A DNA stretch of 64,000 nt. It comes from Candidatus Polarisedimenticola svalbardensis (lineage in GTDB: Bacteria > Acidobacteriota > Polarisedimenticolia > Polarisedimenticolales > Polarisedimenticolaceae). A program made the translations under genes and the position numbers. Location: NCBI GenBank assembly GCA_014764515.1, contig JACXWD010000016.1, positions 1-64,000 of the forward strand, in the 5' to 3' direction. This document shows positions 14,190 through 24,260 of the stretch, piece after piece. Below the pieces are notes generated by a model. It was not told the DNA's origin. It was given only the letters and a program-made list of their open reading frames with translations, and ran no database searches. Position 1 is the first letter of the stretch; each line of letters starts with the position of its first letter.

Positions 14190-15221
14190 CTATTTCACCA
14201 CCACCGTTTCAGGATGGAATCCGGCCCAGACAAACCAGAATATTTTCCGGGCGTCCAGTCTGGGGAGAGTCTCCCCCTCCATCAGCCCGGCAACCGCCTT
14301 GCCGGCGGCGGGATCCCAGCGACTGCCGGTTTCCCGGTCGATCAGTTGGCCATCTTCCAGGGTGAAGTGCAGCCGCATGCCGTCCGCAACCGGCCTGTAG
14401 GCGAATCCATCGCCTCCCGGTGATCGGATCGCCACTACAGGCCCATCGGCATCCAGTTCCAGAACGCCCTTTTTCTCCAGACGGCGGAGGGGAACCGCCG
14501 CATACGAACTCCCGGCCTCGATCCCCAGGACAAGAGTTTTGCCCGGCAGGCGTTTGTCCGGATTCTTCGTTCCCAGCACGCCCATCTTGTCCGGATCCTC
14601 AAAATAGTGCGCGTAAGGGCTGCCCGTTCTGGAGCGGGTATCCGGCTTCAGCACCAGGGTATCCGGATGCATCTTCTTCCATTCACCCCAACTGGTCTGC
14701 ACCGAGGGGTACTTGACGAGGCGCTTGCCCTTGTGGTCGCCGGTAAGGGAGCGGCCGTCAATCTGGCTCCAGTAACTCTCCGTATCCCGATCAAAGAAGA
14801 TCAACGCGTCCCGCCATAGGGCGCCGCTGACTCCGAACGTGGTTTCCTTGCCTTCGATTTCGCGGACGTACACGACGCCCGTAGATGCAAGCGGTCACCA
14901 GGTGGCCGCAACCGGCAACTGGCCGATGCGGTCGTTGACGATCTCGTGACCATCCAGGTACCAGGTCGGGTAGGCTCTTGCGTTGGTGCCGTCGAAAATC
15001 CCGATCACAGGCTCGTCGTCCTTCATGATCGAGCCGGCCTCCGCCGCCGGGATCATCTCGGGATCGTCGATGGCCGGGATGCCGTCTTTCGGCAGGAGGC
15101 GGATCAGGGGATCGCCTTCGATGGTGGCCTCTACCGTGCCCCGGCCCTGGGCCGACACAGGCAGGACGGCCAGCAGGAGGACCAGGATGGTGATGGGGCC
15201 AGGACCTCTGCGGGTTCTCAT
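14190..15221 (-). CDS. DUF3179 protein, probable selenoprotein (TGA = Sec109)
   Basis: Read through one in-frame TGA (14895-14897), this is a 343-residue exported protein. The ATG at 15221 has AAAGGAGA ten bases upstream and opens a signal peptide (MRTRRGPGPITILVLLLAVL). DUF3179 hallmarks occur on both sides of the TGA in the same frame: PVIGIFDGTNARAYP, HEIVNDRIGQLPVAATW before it; PLASTGVVY, FGVSGALW, DRDTESYWSQIDG, TSWGEWKKMHPDT after it. In the family the residue at the TGA is the conserved Cys of a T-[YF]-C-P-L motif. No ribosome site precedes the downstream GTG at 14873, so an independent second gene is unlikely. Last gene of the RND efflux operon. Function of DUF3179 is unknown; Sec suggests thiol redox or metal chemistry. 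Alternative: a nonsense-mutated gene. Confidence 0.82.
14863..14881 (-). promoter_or_regulatory. Candidate bacterial SECIS element in the DUF3179 gene
   Basis: On the minus strand a 7-bp stem (CGGGCGU with ACGUCCG, one G-U pair) closes a 5-nt loop CGUGU. The loop begins 20 nt after the TGA, and G is its second base. This fits the published bacterial SECIS rules: apical loop of 3-14 nt, upper stem of 4-16 bp, loop 16-37 nt after UGA, G among the first two loop bases. Not tested by folding software. Confidence 0.7.
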
Positions 15222-15264
15222 TGCTGCGAATCTCCTTTCGTATCCGGAGACCTTACAACAAGGG

Positions 15265-15432
15265 TCAGGCCCGGGGTATTCCGGTCTCTTCAGGAGGATC
15301 AGGTTCGTCGTCCCGCACGGGGACTTCATGGGGCGCCGCCATTCACGTCTGAACACCCATGCGGGGCAGGATCCAGCGCTGCAACGCGAAGTAACCGGCC
15401 ACCAGCCCCACTATCAGAAGAAAATCGTTCAA
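15265..15432 (-). CDS. Small one-helix membrane protein, possible selenoprotein
   Basis: Starts on TTG inside the RND stop codon (TTGA overlap) with GGAAGG upstream. The first 29 residues are a membrane helix and a basic turn (LLIVGLVAGYFALQRW, then ILPRMGVQT), followed by an in-frame TGA at 15343-15345. Reading on gives 25 more acidic, Pro-rich residues to a TGA at 15265-15267, 55 in all. If the first TGA is a stop, the gene ends at 15343. A hairpin like the one in the next gene follows the TGA. Too short for normal gene callers. It lies between the RND pump and the DUF3179 gene, so it may be a small partner of the pump. I cannot confirm homologues. Confidence 0.55.
15310..15324 (-). promoter_or_regulatory. 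Candidate bacterial SECIS element in the small membrane ORF
   Basis: On the minus strand GUCCC pairs with GGGAC around the loop CGUGC. The loop starts 23 nt after the TGA at 15343-15345 and has G as its second base. Loop size, loop sequence and distance almost repeat those of the hairpin in the DUF3179 gene. The five-bp stem is short, and such hairpins are common by chance in GC-rich DNA. Confidence 0.45.
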
Positions 15433-18400
15433 TTCTTGCCTTCCTTTTTTGTCAGCCATTCCGCCGGCAGCGGCGCCTCATGGTTGCCTCGCTCCACGAT
15501 GTAGTAGACCAGCGGCACCACCACCAGGGTCAACACGGTGGAGGCGATCGCCCCTCCCATCAGGGCGATGGCCAGGCCCTGAAAGATCGGGTCGAACAGT
15601 ATCACCACCGCCCCGGCCACTACCGTACCGGCGGTTAGCAGGATCGGACGGAACCGCACCGCCCCTGCTTCCACCACCGCCTCTCCCAGGCTTTTCCCTT
15701 CGGCCAGGGAGAGATGTACGAAGTCAATCAACAACACGGCGTTCCGCACCATAATTCCCGCCAGGGCGATAAACCCGATCATGGAGGTTGCGGTAAAGAA
15801 CGCGCCGAACAACCAGTGCCCCGGGAGAACGCCGACCAGGGACAGTGGGATGGAGATCATCATGACCAGCGGAACCTTGAACGACTTGAACCAGGCGATG
15901 ATCAGCATGTAGATCAGGATCATGACCACGCCGAAGGCAGCGCCCATGTCACGGAAAACCTCGTAGGTGATGTGCCACTCCCCGTCCCACTTCATGGCGA
16001 CGTCTTCGTCGGTAGGAGGCGCATCGGTGTAGTACTGCTCCACCGTGGTTCCTGCAGGACTCTTCAGCTCTTCGATTTTTTCGGCCAGGGCCATGATGGC
16101 GTATACCGGGCTTTCCTCAGTACCGGCCACATCACCGGTTACGTAGACCACCGGACGGAGATTCTTGCGATGGCGGCTGACCTGCTGTTCGGTCTTACGA
16201 ACCGATACCAGTTCGGAGAGAGGGACCAGGGCGCCATTCATGGAGACAACCCGCACCGTCTGAAGCCGGTCTACCGATGAGCGCTCGGCCCGGGGCATCC
16301 GGAGCTGGATAGACACCGGCTCGGTGGCGGCAGGGTCATGGAGCACACCGACCTGCTCCCCTGCCAGGGCCAGGCGGAGGGTTCTGGCTACCTGCGCCGC
16401 CGCCACACCGTGGAGCGCCGCCTTCTCACGGTCGACCTCGAACACGGTCTTCGGCTGTCTTTCCTCCACGAACCAGTCCACATCGACCACACCTTCAGTC
16501 GACTTGAAAATGTTCAGGATCTCCCGGGCGGTGCCGATCCGGCTGTCCTGATCCGGGCCGTACACTTCCGCCACCAGGGTGGAAAGCACAGGCGGACCTG
16601 GCGGGATCTCCAGGACCTTGACCGCTGCGCCGTAACGGTCGCCGATCTCCACAATCCCCGGCCGGATACGTTTCGCGATCGGGTGGCTCTGATCCTCCCG
16701 GTCATGCTTCGGCAGCAGGTTGACCTGAAGGTCGGCCACGTTGGCTCCCTGCCGCAGATCGTAGTGCCGCACCAGGCCGTTGAAATTGTACGGCGCCGAA
16801 GCCCCGGCGTAGATCTGGAGATCGGTCACTTCCGGCACTGTTCGAAGGTACTCGCCGATCTCCTGGGCTACGGCGGTCGTCCGTTCCAGGGCGGTCCCTT
16901 CAGGCATGTCAATGACGATCTGCAGCTCACTCTTGTTGTCGAACGGCAGCATCTTCACGGTAACCATCTTTGCGGGGACCATCAGGATCGACAGCACCAG
17001 CAGTACGGTCACGGCGCCAAGGAACAACAGTCCCTTCCAGGGCGCAACCACCATCGGTACGAGAATCCTGTGATAGATGCGGTAGATCCACGTCTTTTGC
17101 AGGGCGTCGTCTTCCGCTTCCTGACCGTGAGCGTGGCCGCCTTTCAACAGGCGGTAGGCCAGCCACGGCGCGGCGGAGAGGGCGATCCCCAGGGAGAACA
17201 TCATCGCAAGGGATGCGCCGATCGGCATCGGCAGCATGTACGGCCCCATCAGCCCCCTCACAAACGCCAGCGGAAGCACCGCGGCGATGACGGTGAAGGT
17301 GGCCAGGATCGTCGGGTTCCCGACTTCGCTGACGGCGAACACCGCTGCGTCCAGGGCGGGCCGTTTCTTCATGGCGAAGTGCCGGACGATGTTCTCCACA
17401 ACGATAATGGAATCGTCAACCACGATGCCGGTGACGAATATCAGGGCGAACAGAGTCACCCGGTTCAGGGTGAAATCGAACAGGTAGTAGACGAACAGGG
17501 TCAGGGCGAAGGTGACCGGCACCGAGACGAACACCACCAGGCCGCCTCGCCACCCGAGGAACAGGGCGATGACCAGTGTCACCGTCAGGATAGCAAGGAT
17601 CAGGTGGGTCAACAGTTCCCTGGCCTTTTCCGAGGAAGTCGCACCGTAGTCCCTTGTGACGGTGACCTGCACATCGGAGGGGATCAGCCGCTCCTGCAGG
17701 TCCTCCACCCGTTGCATCGCCCGCCGTACTACTTTTTCGGCGTCGGAGCCCTTGCGCTTTGAGACGGCGATGGTCACCGCCGAAGTCATCAGGTCCTGTC
17801 CCGGCTGGACCTCGATTCCCCGGGCGCCGGCAGCCGGCCCCGGCATGAACATCACATAAGTCGTCGCCTCTTCCGGGCCGTCACGCACCTGGGCTACATC
17901 GGTCAGGTAAACCGGCCTGCCGCCATGGACGCCGACCACGATATTCCGCACCGATTCCACATCGGTGAGGAATGCGCCGGTCTCCACCAACAGCTCCCGG
18001 TTCCCTTCTTCAAGCGAACCGGCCGGCATGGTTGCGTTCTGGACGGTAAGAGCGAACGCCACAGCCGCCGGATCGACACCGAACGCCGCCATCCGGCCTG
18101 GGTCCAGGAGAACCTGCACCTGCCTGCGCTGCCCGCCGGTCAGCCGGATGTCGGAAACGTCTTCCAGCTTGGCGATCTCCTTCGCCAGTTCCGCAGCGAT
18201 CTGCCGGAGTTGGAAAGAGTCGTAGTTCTGGCCCCACAAGGTCAGGGCCAGCACCGGGACATCGTCGATGGTACGTAGTTTCACAAGGGGCAGAGTCGCC
18301 CCGGCCGGCATCTGGTTCATGTTGCCGGCGATTTTGTCGTACAGCTTCACCAGGGATCGTTCCTGGTCCTCTCCAACCAGGAACCGGACGGTGATCATGC

Positions 18401-18686
18401 TCAGACCGGGCATGGAGGCGGAGTAGACGTACTCGACCCCCGGGATCTCCCACATCTTCTTCTCGAGGGGGATGGTGATCCGGCTCTCCACTTCCTCAGG
18501 CGATGCGCCGGGCATCCCGACAAACAGGTCGACCATGGGAACCACGATCTGCGGTTCTTCCTCCCGCGGGGTGTTCATTACGGCGAACACTCCCAGGATC
18601 ATCGCGGCAACGACGATCAGAGGGGTGAGCTTGGACTCGATGAAGAAATGGGCGATCCGACCGGCCGGTCCCATGGAGGAGGTCAT
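15429..18686 (-). CDS. RND efflux transporter, inner membrane pump subunit
   Basis: A 1085-residue RND permease with two six-helix-like halves and two large periplasmic loops. The first helix follows MTSSMGPAGRIAHFFIESKL; the porter domain starts with NTPREEEPQIVVPMVDLF. The TM4 motif FVTGIVVDDSIIVVENI carries the two aspartates of the proton relay. The C-terminal half has a repeat of the same pattern (GFIALAGIMVRNAVLLIDFV), without the DD as usual. It pumps substrates across the envelope with the adaptor and TolC-like gene upstream. Substrate class (drug, lipid, metal) is not clear from the sequence. The stop overlaps the start of the small membrane ORF. Confidence 0.95.
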   Translation of the reverse strand: MTSSMGPAGRIAHFFIESKLTPLIVVAAMILGVFAVMNTPREEEPQIVVPMVDLFVGMPGASPEEVESRITIPLEKKMWEIPGVEYVYSASMPGLSMITVRFLVGEDQERSLVKLYDKIAGNMNQMPAGATLPLVKLRTIDDVPVLALTLWGQNYDSFQLRQIAAELAKEIAKLEDVSDIRLTGGQRRQVQVLLDPGRMAAFGVDPAAVAFALTVQNATMPAGSLEEGNRELLVETGAFLTDVESVRNIVVGVHGGRPVYLTDVAQVRDGPEEATTYVMFMPGPAAGARGIEVQPGQDLMTSAVTIAVSKRKGSDAEKVVRRAMQRVEDLQERLIPSDVQVTVTRDYGATSSEKARELLTHLILAILTVTLVIALFLGWRGGLVVFVSVPVTFALTLFVYYLFDFTLNRVTLFALIFVTGIVVDDSIIVVENIVRHFAMKKRPALDAAVFAVSEVGNPTILATFTVIAAVLPLAFVRGLMGPYMLPMPIGASLAMMFSLGIALSAAPWLAYRLLKGGHAHGQEAEDDALQKTWIYRIYHRILVPMVVAPWKGLLFLGAVTVLLVLSILMVPAKMVTVKMLPFDNKSELQIVIDMPEGTALERTTAVAQEIGEYLRTVPEVTDLQIYAGASAPYNFNGLVRHYDLRQGANVADLQVNLLPKHDREDQSHPIAKRIRPGIVEIGDRYGAAVKVLEIPPGPPVLSTLVAEVYGPDQDSRIGTAREILNIFKSTEGVVDVDWFVEERQPKTVFEVDREKAALHGVAAAQVARTLRLALAGEQVGVLHDPAATEPVSIQLRMPRAERSSVDRLQTVRVVSMNGALVPLSELVSVRKTEQQVSRHRKNLRPVVYVTGDVAGTEESPVYAIMALAEKIEELKSPAGTTVEQYYTDAPPTDEDVAMKWDGEWHITYEVFRDMGAAFGVVMILIYMLIIAWFKSFKVPLVMMISIPLSLVGVLPGHWLFGAFFTATSMIGFIALAGIMVRNAVLLIDFVHLSLAEGKSLGEAVVEAGAVRFRPILLTAGTVVAGAVVILFDPIFQGLAIALMGGAIASTVLTLVVVPLVYYIVERGNHEAPLPAEWLTKKEGKN

Positions 18687-18688
18687 CG

Positions 18689-19780
18689 CTATCGCTCCTG
18701 CACCCTGGCGCCGTCCACCAGCCTGGCCGGCGGCTCCGGCACGTACCGTTCGCCTTCGGACAGACCGGACAGTATCTCGATGCTTCCGGCGTTGGCGTCA
18801 AGCCTGCCGGTGCGCACCCAGCGCAGGCGGGCCATGCCGTTCTCGGCGACCGCAAAGATGCCGGTGAGCTGGCCACGGTTCACTACGGCCGATGCGGGAA
18901 CCAGCAGGGCATCACGGCTTTCACCCTGGAACTTCGTCCGGACGAACATCCCGGATTTGATCTCCCCGGAACCGTTGTCTACAACCACCTGGACCTGGTA
19001 GGTCCGGCTGGCCGGATCGCCTGTAGGCACCACCCGGTCCACCACCGCTTCCAGATCGAGATCCAGGACATCGATCCTGACTTCCACCGGATCCCCTGCC
19101 GTTATCCCGACAACGTCTCCTTCGGGAACCTGCATGGTGACTTTGATCCGGGACAGGTCTTCCACTACGAACATCGGCGCGCCAGGCGTTGCCATGTTTC
19201 CGGCCTCCACCGACCGGGAGGTGATCCAGCCTGCGACAGGGCTGCGAATAACGGCGTAATCCAGCATGACCTCGGCTGCAGACAGGTTGGCCCGGGCCTG
19301 CTCAACGCCTGCCTTCGCCACCCGGGCGCCGGCAGTGCCGTCTTCCAGGTTCTTGTCGGTGACCGAGCCTCGAGAGTGCAGATCGACCAGCCGCTCGTGA
19401 TGCACCCTGGCGTTCTCATGGCTTGCCTCCGCCATGGCCAGCGCGGCTCGGGCCTGTTCCACTGCAGCGTTCAGATCGCGAGCGTCCAGGCGGGCGAGCA
19501 ACTGTCCTTTCCGGACCCGGTCCCCTTCCCTGACCGGGACCTCGGCGATCCGGCCCATGAGCTTGGTGCCGGGGGCGACCTTCCTCCACGGTTCGGCCGA
19601 ACCGGTGACCTCGAAGCGGGACTGTACCGGGCCGGCCTCTGCGACGGAAACCGCAGCCTCGACGGTGACATCCGGGCCGTTGGCGACGGCAGCCGCATCG
19701 TGGCCCCCACCGCAGCCGGCCACTCCAATGAGCGCCGTCAGAAGCAGCGCCGCGTTCGTGATCTTCGTCGTCATCATCAC
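18689..19780 (-). CDS. RND periplasmic adaptor (membrane fusion) lipoprotein
   Basis: A 363-residue HlyD/AcrA-type adaptor. The signal ends in LIGVAGC, a lipobox, so the mature protein is lipid-anchored in the inner membrane. The lipoyl half-motifs (KVAPGTKLMGRIAEVPVREG and VIRSPVAGWITSRSVEAGN) flank an Ala-rich helical hairpin (residues 110-170), followed by a beta-barrel with VPEGDVVGITAGDPVEV. It bridges the RND pump and the outer membrane channel. Its ATG overlaps the stop of the TolC-like gene by four bases, and its stop is two bases from the RND start, so the three are one operon. Confidence 0.95.
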   Translation of the reverse strand: MMMTTKITNAALLLTALIGVAGCGGGHDAAAVANGPDVTVEAAVSVAEAGPVQSRFEVTGSAEPWRKVAPGTKLMGRIAEVPVREGDRVRKGQLLARLDARDLNAAVEQARAALAMAEASHENARVHHERLVDLHSRGSVTDKNLEDGTAGARVAKAGVEQARANLSAAEVMLDYAVIRSPVAGWITSRSVEAGNMATPGAPMFVVEDLSRIKVTMQVPEGDVVGITAGDPVEVRIDVLDLDLEAVVDRVVPTGDPASRTYQVQVVVDNGSGEIKSGMFVRTKFQGESRDALLVPASAVVNRGQLTGIFAVAENGMARLRWVRTGRLDANAGSIEILSGLSEGERYVPEPPARLVDGARVQER

Positions 19781-21123
19781 AACCTTCCGATCGCCAGCTT
19801 CAGCGTGGCGTCCGCTAGGAGGAGATCCCTCCTGGCCTGCACTTCACGGGTCCGTGCGGAGGTCAGCGCCGTCTCCGCCTCCATCAGTTCCACCAGTGTG
19901 GTCAACCCTTCCCTGTAGCGGTCCTCGACCATGACCAGGCTTGCGCCGGCCAGGCCGACCGCCATGCCGGCCTGCTCGATCCGCTTCCGGGCCGCCTTCA
20001 GCTCGTGGAACGCGGTGCGCACTTCAAGTTCCACCGACTGGCCCATGAGCTCGGACGCGGACAGGGCCATGCGGTGTTCGGCCTCGGAGCGAGCAACTTT
20101 CGCCCGGACCTCCTTCCCTCCGAACAGCCGCAGGCGGGCGTGGGCCATCACCGACCAGTTGGTGCCGTCGGCTCCGATGAAGTCCTCGGCGTTGGCCTCG
20201 TAGATCCCGCTGACCCCGACCTCCGGCCGGCCGCCGGAGCGGGCTTCCCTGATCATCAGGGAGGCTGCCTCCGCCTTGAGGGCCGATGCCTTCAGGTCCG
20301 GCCGGCCGGCCCTGGCTTCATTTACCAGAACCTCCAGGGCCTCCTCATCTTCGACTTTGCAGGCGCCGGAGTCACACAGGGCGGACAGGGCGTAGACCTT
20401 GCCCATCGGCTCGCCCATGACCATGTTGAGCCCGGCCATGGAAACCGCCGCCGCGCTCTCGGCGCGGATGACCATCTCCTCGATCTCGGTTCTACGGACC
20501 TGGACCTGCAGCAGGTCCGACTCCACCACCAGCCCGGCCTGGTACATATCGGCTACCAGCTTTTCGTGGGCCTGCGAGGTCTTGAGCGACTCCCCGGCCA
20601 CCTCCCGGTATCGCTCCGCCAGCACTGCGCCGGTATAGGCATCCAGCACCTGGTGAACCACCTGCTGCCGTGTCCGTTCACGATCCGACTCGGCGGCATC
20701 ACGACCGGCTCTGGCCGCATCCACTCCGCTCCGGATCTTGCCGCCGGTGTACACCGGCTGGCTGACCATGACCTGGGTCCGGAAATTGGTCAGGGAGTCG
20801 GGCTGGTTCAGGAAACCGATATCGAAATTGGCGGCGGTGAACGATTCCTGTCCCAGGAGGTTTCCGAAGACGTAGACCGGGTTGGTGGTCCAGGAGAAGT
20901 CCTCGATCAGATCCACCCGGGGAACAAGGTGGGATCGAGCCTCCACGGAGGACTGTTCCGCCGCGTCCGCCGAGGCGGAGGCGATATCCAACTGCCGGTT
21001 CCCTTCCATGGCGATCTGAATCGCCTCTTCCAGGGTCAGCGGTTCGAGAGCCTCACCGCCGGCCCCGGTAACCGGAGCCGCCGCCAGCGCCAACAGAAGC
21101 AGTCCAATGATCCAACCTCTCAT
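19777..21123 (-). CDS. TolC-type outer membrane efflux protein
   Basis: A 448-residue outer membrane factor. The ATG at 21123 has GAGGTG six bases upstream; a GTG nine bases earlier is also possible. Signal peptide (WIIGLLLLALAAAPVTGAG), then the duplicated coiled-coil layout of the family: LTLEEAIQIAMEGN near the start and GLTTLVELMEAETAL near the end. An unusual Cys pair (CDSGAC, residues 250 and 255) sits between the two halves and could form a disulfide or bind metal. First gene of the efflux operon. Confidence 0.94.
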   Translation of the reverse strand: MRGWIIGLLLLALAAAPVTGAGGEALEPLTLEEAIQIAMEGNRQLDIASASADAAEQSSVEARSHLVPRVDLIEDFSWTTNPVYVFGNLLGQESFTAANFDIGFLNQPDSLTNFRTQVMVSQPVYTGGKIRSGVDAARAGRDAAESDRERTRQQVVHQVLDAYTGAVLAERYREVAGESLKTSQAHEKLVADMYQAGLVVESDLLQVQVRRTEIEEMVIRAESAAAVSMAGLNMVMGEPMGKVYALSALCDSGACKVEDEEALEVLVNEARAGRPDLKASALKAEAASLMIREARSGGRPEVGVSGIYEANAEDFIGADGTNWSVMAHARLRLFGGKEVRAKVARSEAEHRMALSASELMGQSVELEVRTAFHELKAARKRIEQAGMAVGLAGASLVMVEDRYREGLTTLVELMEAETALTSARTREVQARRDLLLADATLKLAIGRL

Positions 21124-21259
21124 CTCGTGCACCTCGCGGGACAGCCTTCACCGCCGTCATAAACGGAGATGCCGGCCGCCGGAATCGGTCACGGATGAGA
21201 TTCTTGCATTTTCAGGCGTTTCTAGAAAGGCGGAACGGTTCCTGCCTCGAAGGCCGATA

Positions 21260-23356
21260 TCATCGGATTTCGACTGTTTTTCCCGGCTCCCGGACCGACT
21301 CGAAGTACATCCCGTCCTCCCCGCTCCGGAGAAGGGTGTCCGGATCGGCCCAGTTGGTATAGAACCGGCCGCTGATATAGCCAGCGTATTCGGTCTCCAT
21401 CGGGACGACCCGCCCGGACCCGGCCTCATACAACCAGGTGCCGGTACGCTTGCCCGGGCCATGTGGTACTTCAGGATCGTCCAACCTTTCGTAGCCGGTG
21501 ATCAGCGCTGTCTGCCCATTCGGAGATGTATCCAGGCCAAGGCGATCGGAACCTCCATCGAATACGACGTTCAGGCCAGCCTCCGGCCTCCAGGAGTGAA
21601 GCTGTACATGATCCGACTTATCTCGCTGCACCCAGACCAGTTCGTCCCCTGCCATCCAGTTCGGCCAGAACACTCCGATGCGGCTACCTAGGTCGACTTC
21701 CTCCCCACGAACCAGATCGAACAGCAGGAGCCCCCGAACTTGTTCCGGCCCAACCTTGGGAACGACAGTCCAGAAGTAGCGCCCGGAGCGGGACAGCGTG
21801 TAATTGCCGCCGGACAAACCATGGGGAACTTCAACGGTCGGCACGGATGCCAACCGGTTCCCTTCAAGGCGGACCTTGTGGAGGATGACCGAGCGGTCCC
21901 TGTCCACATCACTTGCCTTGTCGTAGTTAAGTCCGATCGGATCCTTGGCGATGGCGAGTACGATCTCCTCTACCCCGGCTGCCGGTGTGTAGATCCTCCA
22001 GTCGTACCAGCCCGGGCCGGGAATCGGAAGGTCATGGCTCAGCTGCTGCAAATAACCGGACCCTTCCTTCATGCCTCGCTTCAGCATGAAAAATCGGACC
22101 ATCTCTCCTGCCTTATCGGGCTTCTGGTCCCATTCCCAGGCCACGTGGTCGATGGTGACGATTATCAGTTCCTCACCGATCCAGACCAGATCACGGATCC
22201 ATTCATTCTCCGACAGCGGCAGGGAGGCCATGGTCTCTCCGGTTTCAGCCTCCACGAGATCGATCCTGGGCGCCCAGGAGCTGCTCCAGCGGATCGAGTT
22301 TCCGTGAGTGACAGCCGCTACGAACCTCCCGTCGGCGCTCCATGTGACCATGTCGGTCGGCACTCCGAAGAACCTTAGTTTCTCCCCGGTCTCCGTATCC
22401 ACCAGCCAGCCCCCGGAAGCCATGTAGCCGCCGGTAAGGATGGTGCGACTGGAATCAGGCGAAGGGTAGATGCGTCCGTTGTCCATATAGGCGTTGACGT
22501 TGGCCCGGACAGCCAGCGGCGCCATGATCAGGAACAGGACCAGCACGCCGAAGATGGAAGGAACCAGGACCTTGGCGCCACGGGCCCGGCTCCCACGGCC
22601 GGCCGGTTCACCGCGACAGAGAGCGAACCATGAGACGGCGACGTAGACCGGGTACAGCAGCACCGGCAGGATCATCCCCACCGGAAGCCGGCTCAGGGTG
22701 ATCAGCGGCGACGGGAACGTGTCGTAATCAATGCGGAACAGGACGGCGTAGGGTGACAGGCCACCCAGGAATACAGCCGCCCCAGCCGGCAGGGCCGCAA
22801 GAAGAAGGCCGCCCAGGACACCGATCATCGGTGAGTCCAGGAACGCCGTGGCGGCCATACCGCCGCAGATCGATGCAAGCATAACGGCCAGACCAACCCC
22901 CAGAAGCAGGCCGGACAGTTTCAGATAGGTTCCCTCGATCGGATCGCCCAGGTACAGGAAGTACCCGAGCCAGATCAGCCAGCCTCCTAACAGAACGATC
23001 AGGCCGTTGGCCGTAACCGCCGCCAGCCGGGCCCTCCAGGTCAGGGACCTGAGTACCGGCCGCTCCAGGAGGAACGATTCGTTTCCTGTGGAGCGGTCCC
23101 CGGCGAACGCCTGGGCGGTGAACAGTGCGGCGAAGAACGCCCAACCCAGGACCAGGATCATCGGCACCGCATCCATGAACAGCTGGGTGACGTCGTAGGA
23201 TTTGATGGAGAACATCGGGACCCAGCCCCGGCTGGCCGATTCGGCCACCATCATGACGAACGGCGGCAGAAGGACCGTCAGAAGGATCGCCACACGGCGC
23301 AGGACCGAGGACTGCTTCCATTCCTTGCGGAAAATCGCCTTGAACGGACTATGCAT
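21260..23356 (-). CDS. ABC exporter permease fused to a beta-propeller-like domain
   Basis: A 698-residue protein. The ATG at 23356 is nine bases after GGAGG and overlaps the end of the ABC ATPase gene by eight bases. Residues 1-250 hold about six membrane helices of an ABC-2-like permease (FAALFTAQAFAGDRSTGNES is the family's first cytosolic loop). After a further helix near 280-300, residues 305-690 show repeated beta-strand blades (GGWLVDTETGEKLRFF, MVTWSADGRFVAAVT, LSRSGRYFWTVV) like a WD40/TolB-type propeller, predicted outside the membrane. The ATPase and a GntR regulator precede it. Substrate unknown. Confidence 0.85.
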   Translation of the reverse strand: MHSPFKAIFRKEWKQSSVLRRVAILLTVLLPPFVMMVAESASRGWVPMFSIKSYDVTQLFMDAVPMILVLGWAFFAALFTAQAFAGDRSTGNESFLLERPVLRSLTWRARLAAVTANGLIVLLGGWLIWLGYFLYLGDPIEGTYLKLSGLLLGVGLAVMLASICGGMAATAFLDSPMIGVLGGLLLAALPAGAAVFLGGLSPYAVLFRIDYDTFPSPLITLSRLPVGMILPVLLYPVYVAVSWFALCRGEPAGRGSRARGAKVLVPSIFGVLVLFLIMAPLAVRANVNAYMDNGRIYPSPDSSRTILTGGYMASGGWLVDTETGEKLRFFGVPTDMVTWSADGRFVAAVTHGNSIRWSSSWAPRIDLVEAETGETMASLPLSENEWIRDLVWIGEELIIVTIDHVAWEWDQKPDKAGEMVRFFMLKRGMKEGSGYLQQLSHDLPIPGPGWYDWRIYTPAAGVEEIVLAIAKDPIGLNYDKASDVDRDRSVILHKVRLEGNRLASVPTVEVPHGLSGGNYTLSRSGRYFWTVVPKVGPEQVRGLLLFDLVRGEEVDLGSRIGVFWPNWMAGDELVWVQRDKSDHVQLHSWRPEAGLNVVFDGGSDRLGLDTSPNGQTALITGYERLDDPEVPHGPGKRTGTWLYEAGSGRVVPMETEYAGYISGRFYTNWADPDTLLRSGEDGMYFESVREPGKTVEIR

Positions 23357-24260
23357 GATCGTCATCCTCCGTGAGGCCACTGCCCTTGAGGCATGCCACC
23401 AGGATCTCTTCCAGAGGAAGCGGTTCCACGGTGACGTTCACGGCGCCTGCGTTCTGCAGCGCCTGCTCCAGCTCCCCGTTGGCGCCGTCGGCCACCACCA
23501 GGAGCGTGCGGTTTTCCCGTTCCACGGAAACCAGCCCCGGGAGAGTGAGCTGTTCCGGGGGCTCGTTCTCGAAAACAGCCCTCACCCGGCGGACTCTTGC
23601 CTTGATCTTTTCAAGGTCCCCTTCCAGGATCGATTTCCCTTCGTCCAGGACCGTGACCTGGTCGGCGATCCGCTCCACGTCGTGGATCAGGTGGGAGGCG
23701 TACACCACCGCCCCACCTTCCGCCGGCACCGATTCCAGGACCCCTTCCAGAACCTCCCGGCGGACCAGCGGGTCCAGTCCGGAAGTAGGATCGTCCAGGA
23801 GGAGCAGGCGCGGCCTTACTGCAACCGCCAGCACCAGGGAGACCTTGGCCTTGTTGCCCCGGGAGAGATCCTTGATCTTTCTTTTCGGATCCAGGTCCAG
23901 CCGTTTCCGGAACGACTCGGCGAAGGCCGGATCCCAGTTGGGATGAAGGCCGGCGGCGAAGGTCATGATTTCCCGCACCGTCATCCAGCCGTACAGGCTG
24001 GCCTCTTCCGACATCAGTCCGACCTGCTCCCGAACCTTGATCCCCTCGGTCACCGGATCGTGACCCAGCACGCGGATGTCGCCGGCGTCAGGATGGAGAT
24101 GACCCAGGGCCAGCCTCAGGGATGTGGACTTGCCGGCGCCGTTGCGCCCGATCAGGCCCAGCACCGTACCCGGCTCCACGTTCAGATCCAGGCCGTCCAG
24201 CGCAACCGTGCTGCCGAACCGGCGGGAAACCTTGCGGAAAGTCAGTACCTGCCCGCTCAT
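23349..24260 (-). CDS. ABC transporter ATP-binding protein
   Basis: A 303-residue ATPase with Walker A GRNGAGKST, Q-loop region VGLMSEEASLYGWMTV, signature DLSRGNKAKVSLV, Walker B LLLLDDPTSGLDP and a switch His (YASHLIHDVE). The C-terminal 80 residues form the regulatory extension seen in EcsA/YtrB-type exporters. It powers the permease gene that overlaps its 3' end. Its ATG overlaps the GntR stop by four bases (ATGA), so the three genes form one operon. Confidence 0.96.
   Translation of the reverse strand: MSGQVLTFRKVSRRFGSTVALDGLDLNVEPGTVLGLIGRNGAGKSTSLRLALGHLHPDAGDIRVLGHDPVTEGIKVREQVGLMSEEASLYGWMTVREIMTFAAGLHPNWDPAFAESFRKRLDLDPKRKIKDLSRGNKAKVSLVLAVAVRPRLLLLDDPTSGLDPLVRREVLEGVLESVPAEGGAVVYASHLIHDVERIADQVTVLDEGKSILEGDLEKIKARVRRVRAVFENEPPEQLTLPGLVSVERENRTLLVVADGANGELEQALQNAGAVNVTVEPLPLEEILVACLKGSGLTEDDDHA

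Follow-up and report, generated by a model that had tools for sequence, protein, structure and literature searches.

A predicted family of small one-helix selenoproteins, apparently uncatalogued, with a member encoded beside an RND efflux pump in Candidatus Polarisedimenticola svalbardensis

Two genes at the end of an efflux operon, each with an in-frame TGA, raise the question of whether these codons are read as selenocysteine (Sec) and whether the genes form a unit with the pump. They lie on the minus strand of the 64,000-nucleotide stretch of Candidatus Polarisedimenticola svalbardensis DNA analysed here (contig JACXWD010000016.1, positions 1 to 64,000; the window), behind the genes for a resistance-nodulation-division (RND) efflux system, and encode a small one-helix protein and a DUF3179 protein. 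An earlier note on this DNA had seen a candidate Sec in each and proposed that pump, small protein and DUF3179 may define a recurring module, with a selenol step at the envelope tied to export. We assign the small open reading frame (ORF) to a widespread family, apparently not yet catalogued, whose members, judged by their sequences, are almost certainly selenoproteins. DUF3179 is an already known selenoprotein family, and the small family is the apparently new part.

Using the N-terminal 36 residues of the small ORF as query against 120 relatives, we obtained about 25 further matches at E <0.1, almost all of which contain a single TGA, placed at the same position. A profile search over 297 relatives found 73 carriers, again nearly always with TGA. 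GTDB contigs were also scanned at the DNA level for W-x-L-P-x-x-G-x-x-T-(U or C)-M, with a pattern that accepted TGA and TGC/TGT equally at the Sec/Cys column. At least 119 stretches matched, and the family figures given here refer to the 119 matches listed. Every one of these (119/119) encodes a hydrophobic helix and has a start codon, always 14-29 and mostly 19 codons upstream. The column reads TGA in 113 and TGC or TGT in 6, and the in-frame UGA of the small ORF thus stands at a position conserved as Sec or Cys in its homologues. Of the 113 TGA forms, 100 have Sec as residue 29 or 30; a Cys follows five residues past the column in 96 of the 119, and the median length is 58 residues. The architecture is an N-terminal helix of about 20 residues, a junction W-[IVL]-L-P-x-x-G-[VI]-x-T, Sec-Met, usually the +5 Cys and a short polar tail; the motif common to the family is one helix followed by W-x-L-P-x-x-G-V-x-T-U-M. 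Carriers span at least about ten bacterial phyla, those named including Acidobacteriota, deltaproteobacterial lineages, Planctomycetes, Spirochaetes, Obscuribacterales, Verrucomicrobia, Gemmatimonadetes, Zixibacteria, Armatimonadetes and one actinomycete.

Past the TGA, the Ser at +2 is written by TCN codons 47 times and by AGY 34 times, and the Cys at +5 by TGC 55 times and TGT 41 times. Since each residue is kept through alternative codons, the stretch after the TGA is under constraint as protein. A bacterial Sec insertion sequence (SECIS) is a hairpin with a G in its apical loop, 16-37 nucleotides (nt) downstream of the UGA (PMC13188914), and hairpins of this kind are enriched across the family. 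Their mean score is 16.1, whereas dinucleotide shuffles and 2371 control TGAs both average 8.5, and 83 of 112 members have a hairpin at p<=0.05. In the commonest geometry the five apical pairs are kept in 23/23 sequences, with compensatory C-G, G-C and U-A at one pair. The form of the codon also follows the presence of tRNA-Sec. Taking scores of >52 bits as clear and 47-52 bits as background, we detected a clear tRNA-Sec in 36-37 of 40 TGA-form genomes and in none of the 6 Cys-form genomes (Fisher p about 1e-5), where scores were at background or no hit was obtained. The Cys-form members have the same helix, junction and C-x4-C. This comparison replaced a cross-tabulation of tRNA-Sec against small-gene presence across the 120 relatives, which does not discriminate because tRNA-Sec is common among them.

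The window genome encodes tRNA-Sec (UCA anticodon), SelB and SelA, all over their cut-offs. Because the TGA is kept in relatives of both tail proteins and the genome has this machinery, the two in-frame TGAs are more than chance, and selenoproteins are very likely the products of both tail genes, as had been supposed. The TGA of the DUF3179 gene is its only one in frame, and translation through it matches PF11376 end to end (model 1-292 of 292, E 3.8e-81, 273 bits against a cut-off of 27). DUF3179 proteins are listed as UxxC/T selenoproteins (PMC9312934, PMC13188914). The window protein shares with them the full-length match and a Sec at the invariant position, but its motif is U-P-L-A, in which the second Cys has become Ala, so that it departs from the listed UxxC/T motif while its PF11376 membership stands. 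Replacement of this second Cys (U-P-L-A or U-P-L-V) was seen at window positions 14886-14897 and at loci L010, L011, L012, L013, L021 and L024. The N-terminus has a signal-like stretch, and the protein is probably periplasmic. In an AlphaFold2 model (pLDDT 91), compared mainly over residues 237-335, the C-terminal half resembles Rieske-type ferredoxin domains (Z 9.9, 90 residues, 2.5 A) and the N-terminal half does so more weakly; the parts outside that range could have other folds. As a whole the model recalls tandem Rieske-type domains, and the Sec/Cys motif may take the place of the cluster-binding residues, which would give this uncharacterised domain a possible fold. The same genome has a second DUF3179 gene (G000:C76:24725-25195), which is without an in-frame TGA.

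Table 1. Coordinates of the efflux operon, the two selenoprotein genes and their recoding signals in the window
Feature	Position	Strand	Basis
TolC-family outer-membrane channel (PF02321)	19777..21132	minus	Pfam E 1.9e-55
RND periplasmic adaptor (TIGR01730)	18689..19780	minus	NCBIfam E 1.2e-65, over cut-off
RND pump, ACR_tran	15429..18686	minus	Pfam E 6.3e-169
Small one-helix selenoprotein (very likely), 55 aa, TTG start, Sec = residue 30	15265..15432	minus	Translation with TGA=U and family comparison
Sec codon TGA, small selenoprotein, codon 30	15343..15345	minus	Invariant TGA/TGC/TGT column in family
Candidate bacterial SECIS hairpin GUCCC-CGUGC-GGGAC	15310..15324	minus	Apical loop 23 nt past TGA; fits 16-37 nt rule (PMC13188914)
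DUF3179 selenoprotein (very likely), UPLA variant, signal-like N-terminus	14190..15221	minus	Full-length PF11376 and alignment
Sec codon TGA, DUF3179, codon 109	14895..14897	minus	On invariant Cys/Sec column
Candidate SECIS hairpin CGGGCGU-CGUGU-ACGUCCG, DUF3179	14863..14881	minus	Hairpin downstream of TGA

The coordinates (Table 1) bear out the minus-strand order TolC, adaptor, RND pump, small ORF and DUF3179; a TolC-type channel, an adaptor and an ACR_tran pump in one operon constitute a tripartite RND efflux system. The first four genes are joined much as the earlier note described, with a 4-nt overlap of TolC and adaptor, a 2-nt gap between adaptor and pump, and the TTG of the small ORF overlapping the pump's TGA. 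The small gene and the TolC-adaptor-RND operon are probably co-transcribed and translationally coupled in this lineage. The terminal TGA of the small ORF (15265-15267) is, again as described, 43 nt from the DUF3179 ATG. A terminator or separate promoter between pump and tail genes had been named as evidence against the proposal; a consensus scan, the only kind made, found no promoter-like or terminator-like site between pump and DUF3179. DUF3179 may be on the same transcript as the pump and the small gene. The pump falls under every cut-off of the named NCBIfam RND subfamilies (best NF033617, 470 bits against 1250), and orthologues of it occur in 51 of the 120 relatives. An Rfam scan of the window gave no family at its cut-off. 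The efflux operon is immediately preceded, also on the minus strand, by ABC transporter permease and ATPase genes (21260-24260).

How far does this arrangement recur? Of the 31 carriers of the small gene among the 120 relatives, 12, from six families, have the same RND pump encoded no more than about 2.5 kb upstream and in the same orientation. Pump genes also lie near the small gene at L153, L184, L194, L197 and L239, and the association extends across several families of this phylum and into other phyla. Often the two are separated by a gene for a protein of about 97 residues, a YgaP-like membrane protein or a UspA-like protein (the last recognised by eye). The protein of about 97 residues (MKQLTxxCS...PCLR) has no Pfam match and stands between pump and small gene at L120 (3223-3561), L128 (9642-9983) and L124 (119-770); in genome G006 its gene is present in two tandem copies. 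YgaP-like transmembrane (TM) genes flank 11 of 30 pump loci, compared with 0 of 20 control loci and no DUF3179 locus, and within 1.5 kb of the pump none of the 30 pump loci has a thioredoxin, rhodanese, TauE or DUF302 gene. The survey of DUF3179 neighbourhoods went against the proposed recurrence beside RND pumps: neither pump nor small gene was found at any of 20 DUF3179 loci of relatives, and among all small-gene loci examined only the window has DUF3179 nearby. In the sister genome (G001, pump 94% identical) the pump and small gene are followed by a PilZ-domain gene on the opposite strand (L119, 5502-6245, minus) and then by polA, with no DUF3179; polA is also next in the window, where DUF3179 takes the place of the PilZ gene. 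Since the placement of DUF3179 differs in the relatives and the sister, the three-part module does not recur, whereas the pump-small pair does. DUF3179 is placed beside the small gene in this lineage only and is not a conserved partner.

What the small protein may do is suggested by the ORFs clustered around the 119 loci. A thioredoxin gene is present at 17 loci, in 16 of them on the same strand, and a CoA-disulfide reductase/rhodanese gene at 17; the other recurrent clusters are the RND adaptor, pump and TolC, DUF302, TauE/SafE, ArsR-type regulators and extracytoplasmic function (ECF) sigma factors. In a Pfam scan of the immediate neighbours, thioredoxin and rhodanese rank top upstream and thioredoxin downstream, and proteins with metallo-beta-lactamase and rhodanese domains, of the persulfide-dioxygenase type, are among them. 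In six relatives trxA starts directly downstream of the small gene. Of 49 matches to a sulfur/thiol set (thioredoxin, rhodanese, CoA-disulfide reductase, TauE, DUF302 and persulfide-dioxygenase-like), 37 are no more than 1 kb away, against an expectation of 25% from the available sequence (p 2e-13). Comparable sets of genes have been described in sulfide and sulfane-sulfur operons (PMC5823870, PMC12423496). The neighbourhoods thus tie the family to sulfane-sulfur/thiol stress and to one RND pump subfamily. Of the pump substrates once suggested, metals and metalloids found no support, and sulfur/thiol chemistry is where the neighbours point. ECF sigma factors stand beside the small gene at L143, L188, L212, L224, L235 and L251, at some of these loci together with zinc-finger anti-sigma-like proteins, and their recurrence may reflect a regulon that senses thiols or selenols.

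The mean charge of family members is -0.7 at the N-terminus and +1.5 at the junction. By the positive-inside rule, a slightly acidic N-terminus and a basic junction would put the Sec on the cytoplasmic face, where thioredoxin works, and the sequence suggests an N-out/C-in protein. Because the DUF3179 N-terminus is signal-like while the small protein has this charge pattern, one selenol probably lies on each side of the inner membrane. In the mechanism we propose, the helix would fix a reactive selenol to the inner membrane on its cytoplasmic side, and the selenol would accept sulfane sulfur from persulfides or reduce oxidised or electrophilic thiol species near the membrane. The +5 Cys, together with thioredoxin or CoA-disulfide-reductase systems, would regenerate the selenol, and the pump would remove a toxic compound of the same stress. 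Taken as a whole, we consider it likely that the small ORF represents an apparently uncatalogued selenoprotein family providing a membrane selenol for sulfane-sulfur/thiol chemistry, often coupled to a pump.

Several observations weigh against this explanation. A recognised sulfur/thiol gene lies within 2.5 kb at only 33 of the 119 loci, and many neighbourhoods are unexplained. The sulfur/thiol redox role of the family, which we favour by a little, and any particular pump substrate, for which the odds are low, are both read from the neighbourhood alone. No tRNA-Sec was detected in three TGA-form genomes, nor in three small-gene-positive relatives. The window protein has no +5 Cys and would therefore need a partner thiol. 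Its gene has a SECIS stem of 5 bp only, weaker than the family-wide signal, and RNA folding of the window's post-TGA stretches by themselves was not better than shuffles, so that the SECIS case rests on the family. The selenoprotein call for the small ORF, strong as it is, is a prediction from DNA, and small proteins that stop after a helix are common; the TGA might thus be an ordinary stop that ends a 29-residue membrane peptide, with the downstream hairpin as a regulatory RNA element. We regard this as scarcely credible, given that in the six Cys-encoding relatives the reading frame runs on past this position and the C-x4-C pattern is shared, that the downstream Ser and Cys are kept although their codons differ, and that the TGA form tracks tRNA-Sec and the Cys form its absence.

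The direct coupling to the pump in the window and the sister genome, together with the occurrence of the pair across several families of the phylum and beyond it, would fit a small protein that is a structural or regulatory pump subunit whose Sec senses redox state and gates the pump. This is unlikely, since most family members have no nearby pump and many lie beside thioredoxin, DUF302 or CoA-disulfide reductase. The selenol could instead bind the pump's own substrate, if this is a metal or metalloid (Hg, As, Se), Sec being a good soft-metal ligand and several transporter selenoproteins being tied to metal resistance (PMC13188914). We think this improbable: no metal-resistance gene family recurs among the neighbours, and the ArsR-type regulators that do recur belong to a type of repressor that also senses sulfide or sulfane sulfur (PMC5823870, PMC12423496). 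More improbable still is a single conserved selenol-export system of pump, small protein and DUF3179; tight spacing, a shared strand and the lack of a terminator-like site between pump and tail genes in the window speak for it, but no other genome examined has DUF3179 close to either the small gene or the pump, and the sister has the PilZ gene in its place. The reading we prefer, a membrane selenol in sulfane-sulfur/thiol chemistry, has a broader form that we raise tentatively. Here, the Sec-dominated family would serve many environmental bacteria as a general persulfide/thiol reductant at the cytoplasmic face, would provide an RND pump directly with reducing or acceptor chemistry, and would have been missed because the ORF resembles a 29-codon peptide with few Cys homologues.

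A selenoprotein family of at least 119 members in about ten phyla is apparently absent from family databases and from the latest review examined. With the UGA at codon 29-30, its genes escape standard gene callers. When 51 members were searched against Pfam and NCBIfam, each library gave one stray match (E 0.003-0.004) to unrelated families and no real match. The 119-family table of a 2026 review (PMC13188914, its Table 1) holds no motif or family that corresponds, and we found no single-pass bacterial selenoprotein of this kind in the open-access literature. Like the catalogued bacterial selenoproteins, the small family has a UGA, a downstream bacterial SECIS and Cys homologues, but most catalogued families are thioredoxin-like or larger enzymes (PMC13188914). 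Cys forms usually outnumber Sec forms in catalogued bacterial families (PMC13188914), and here the ratio is reversed, with Sec to Cys at about 19 to 1. This excess of Sec is unusual, since in nearly all known bacterial selenoproteins the Cys homologues are far more numerous. The family is small and tractable enough to serve for studying why selenium is retained. GOS_A, from a 2008 marine survey, has the opposite ratio (2 Sec and 155 Cys sequences) and is set apart from the small family by that ratio alone. The YgaP-like TM proteins (PF11127) are likewise tiny membrane proteins that adjoin the same pumps, and some have a W...LGV junction near a Cys. The small family differs in its one helix and in having Sec in place of Cys; none of the 51 members matches PF11127, and the likeness falls short of demonstrated homology. 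The eukaryotic SELENOK and SELENOS are small single-pass membrane proteins with Sec in the cytosolic tail, near the C-terminus, and with the SECIS in the 3' untranslated region. By analogy, and with no sequence similarity to be expected, the small family resembles them in size and single-pass design and differs from them in the position of Sec and the placement of the SECIS.

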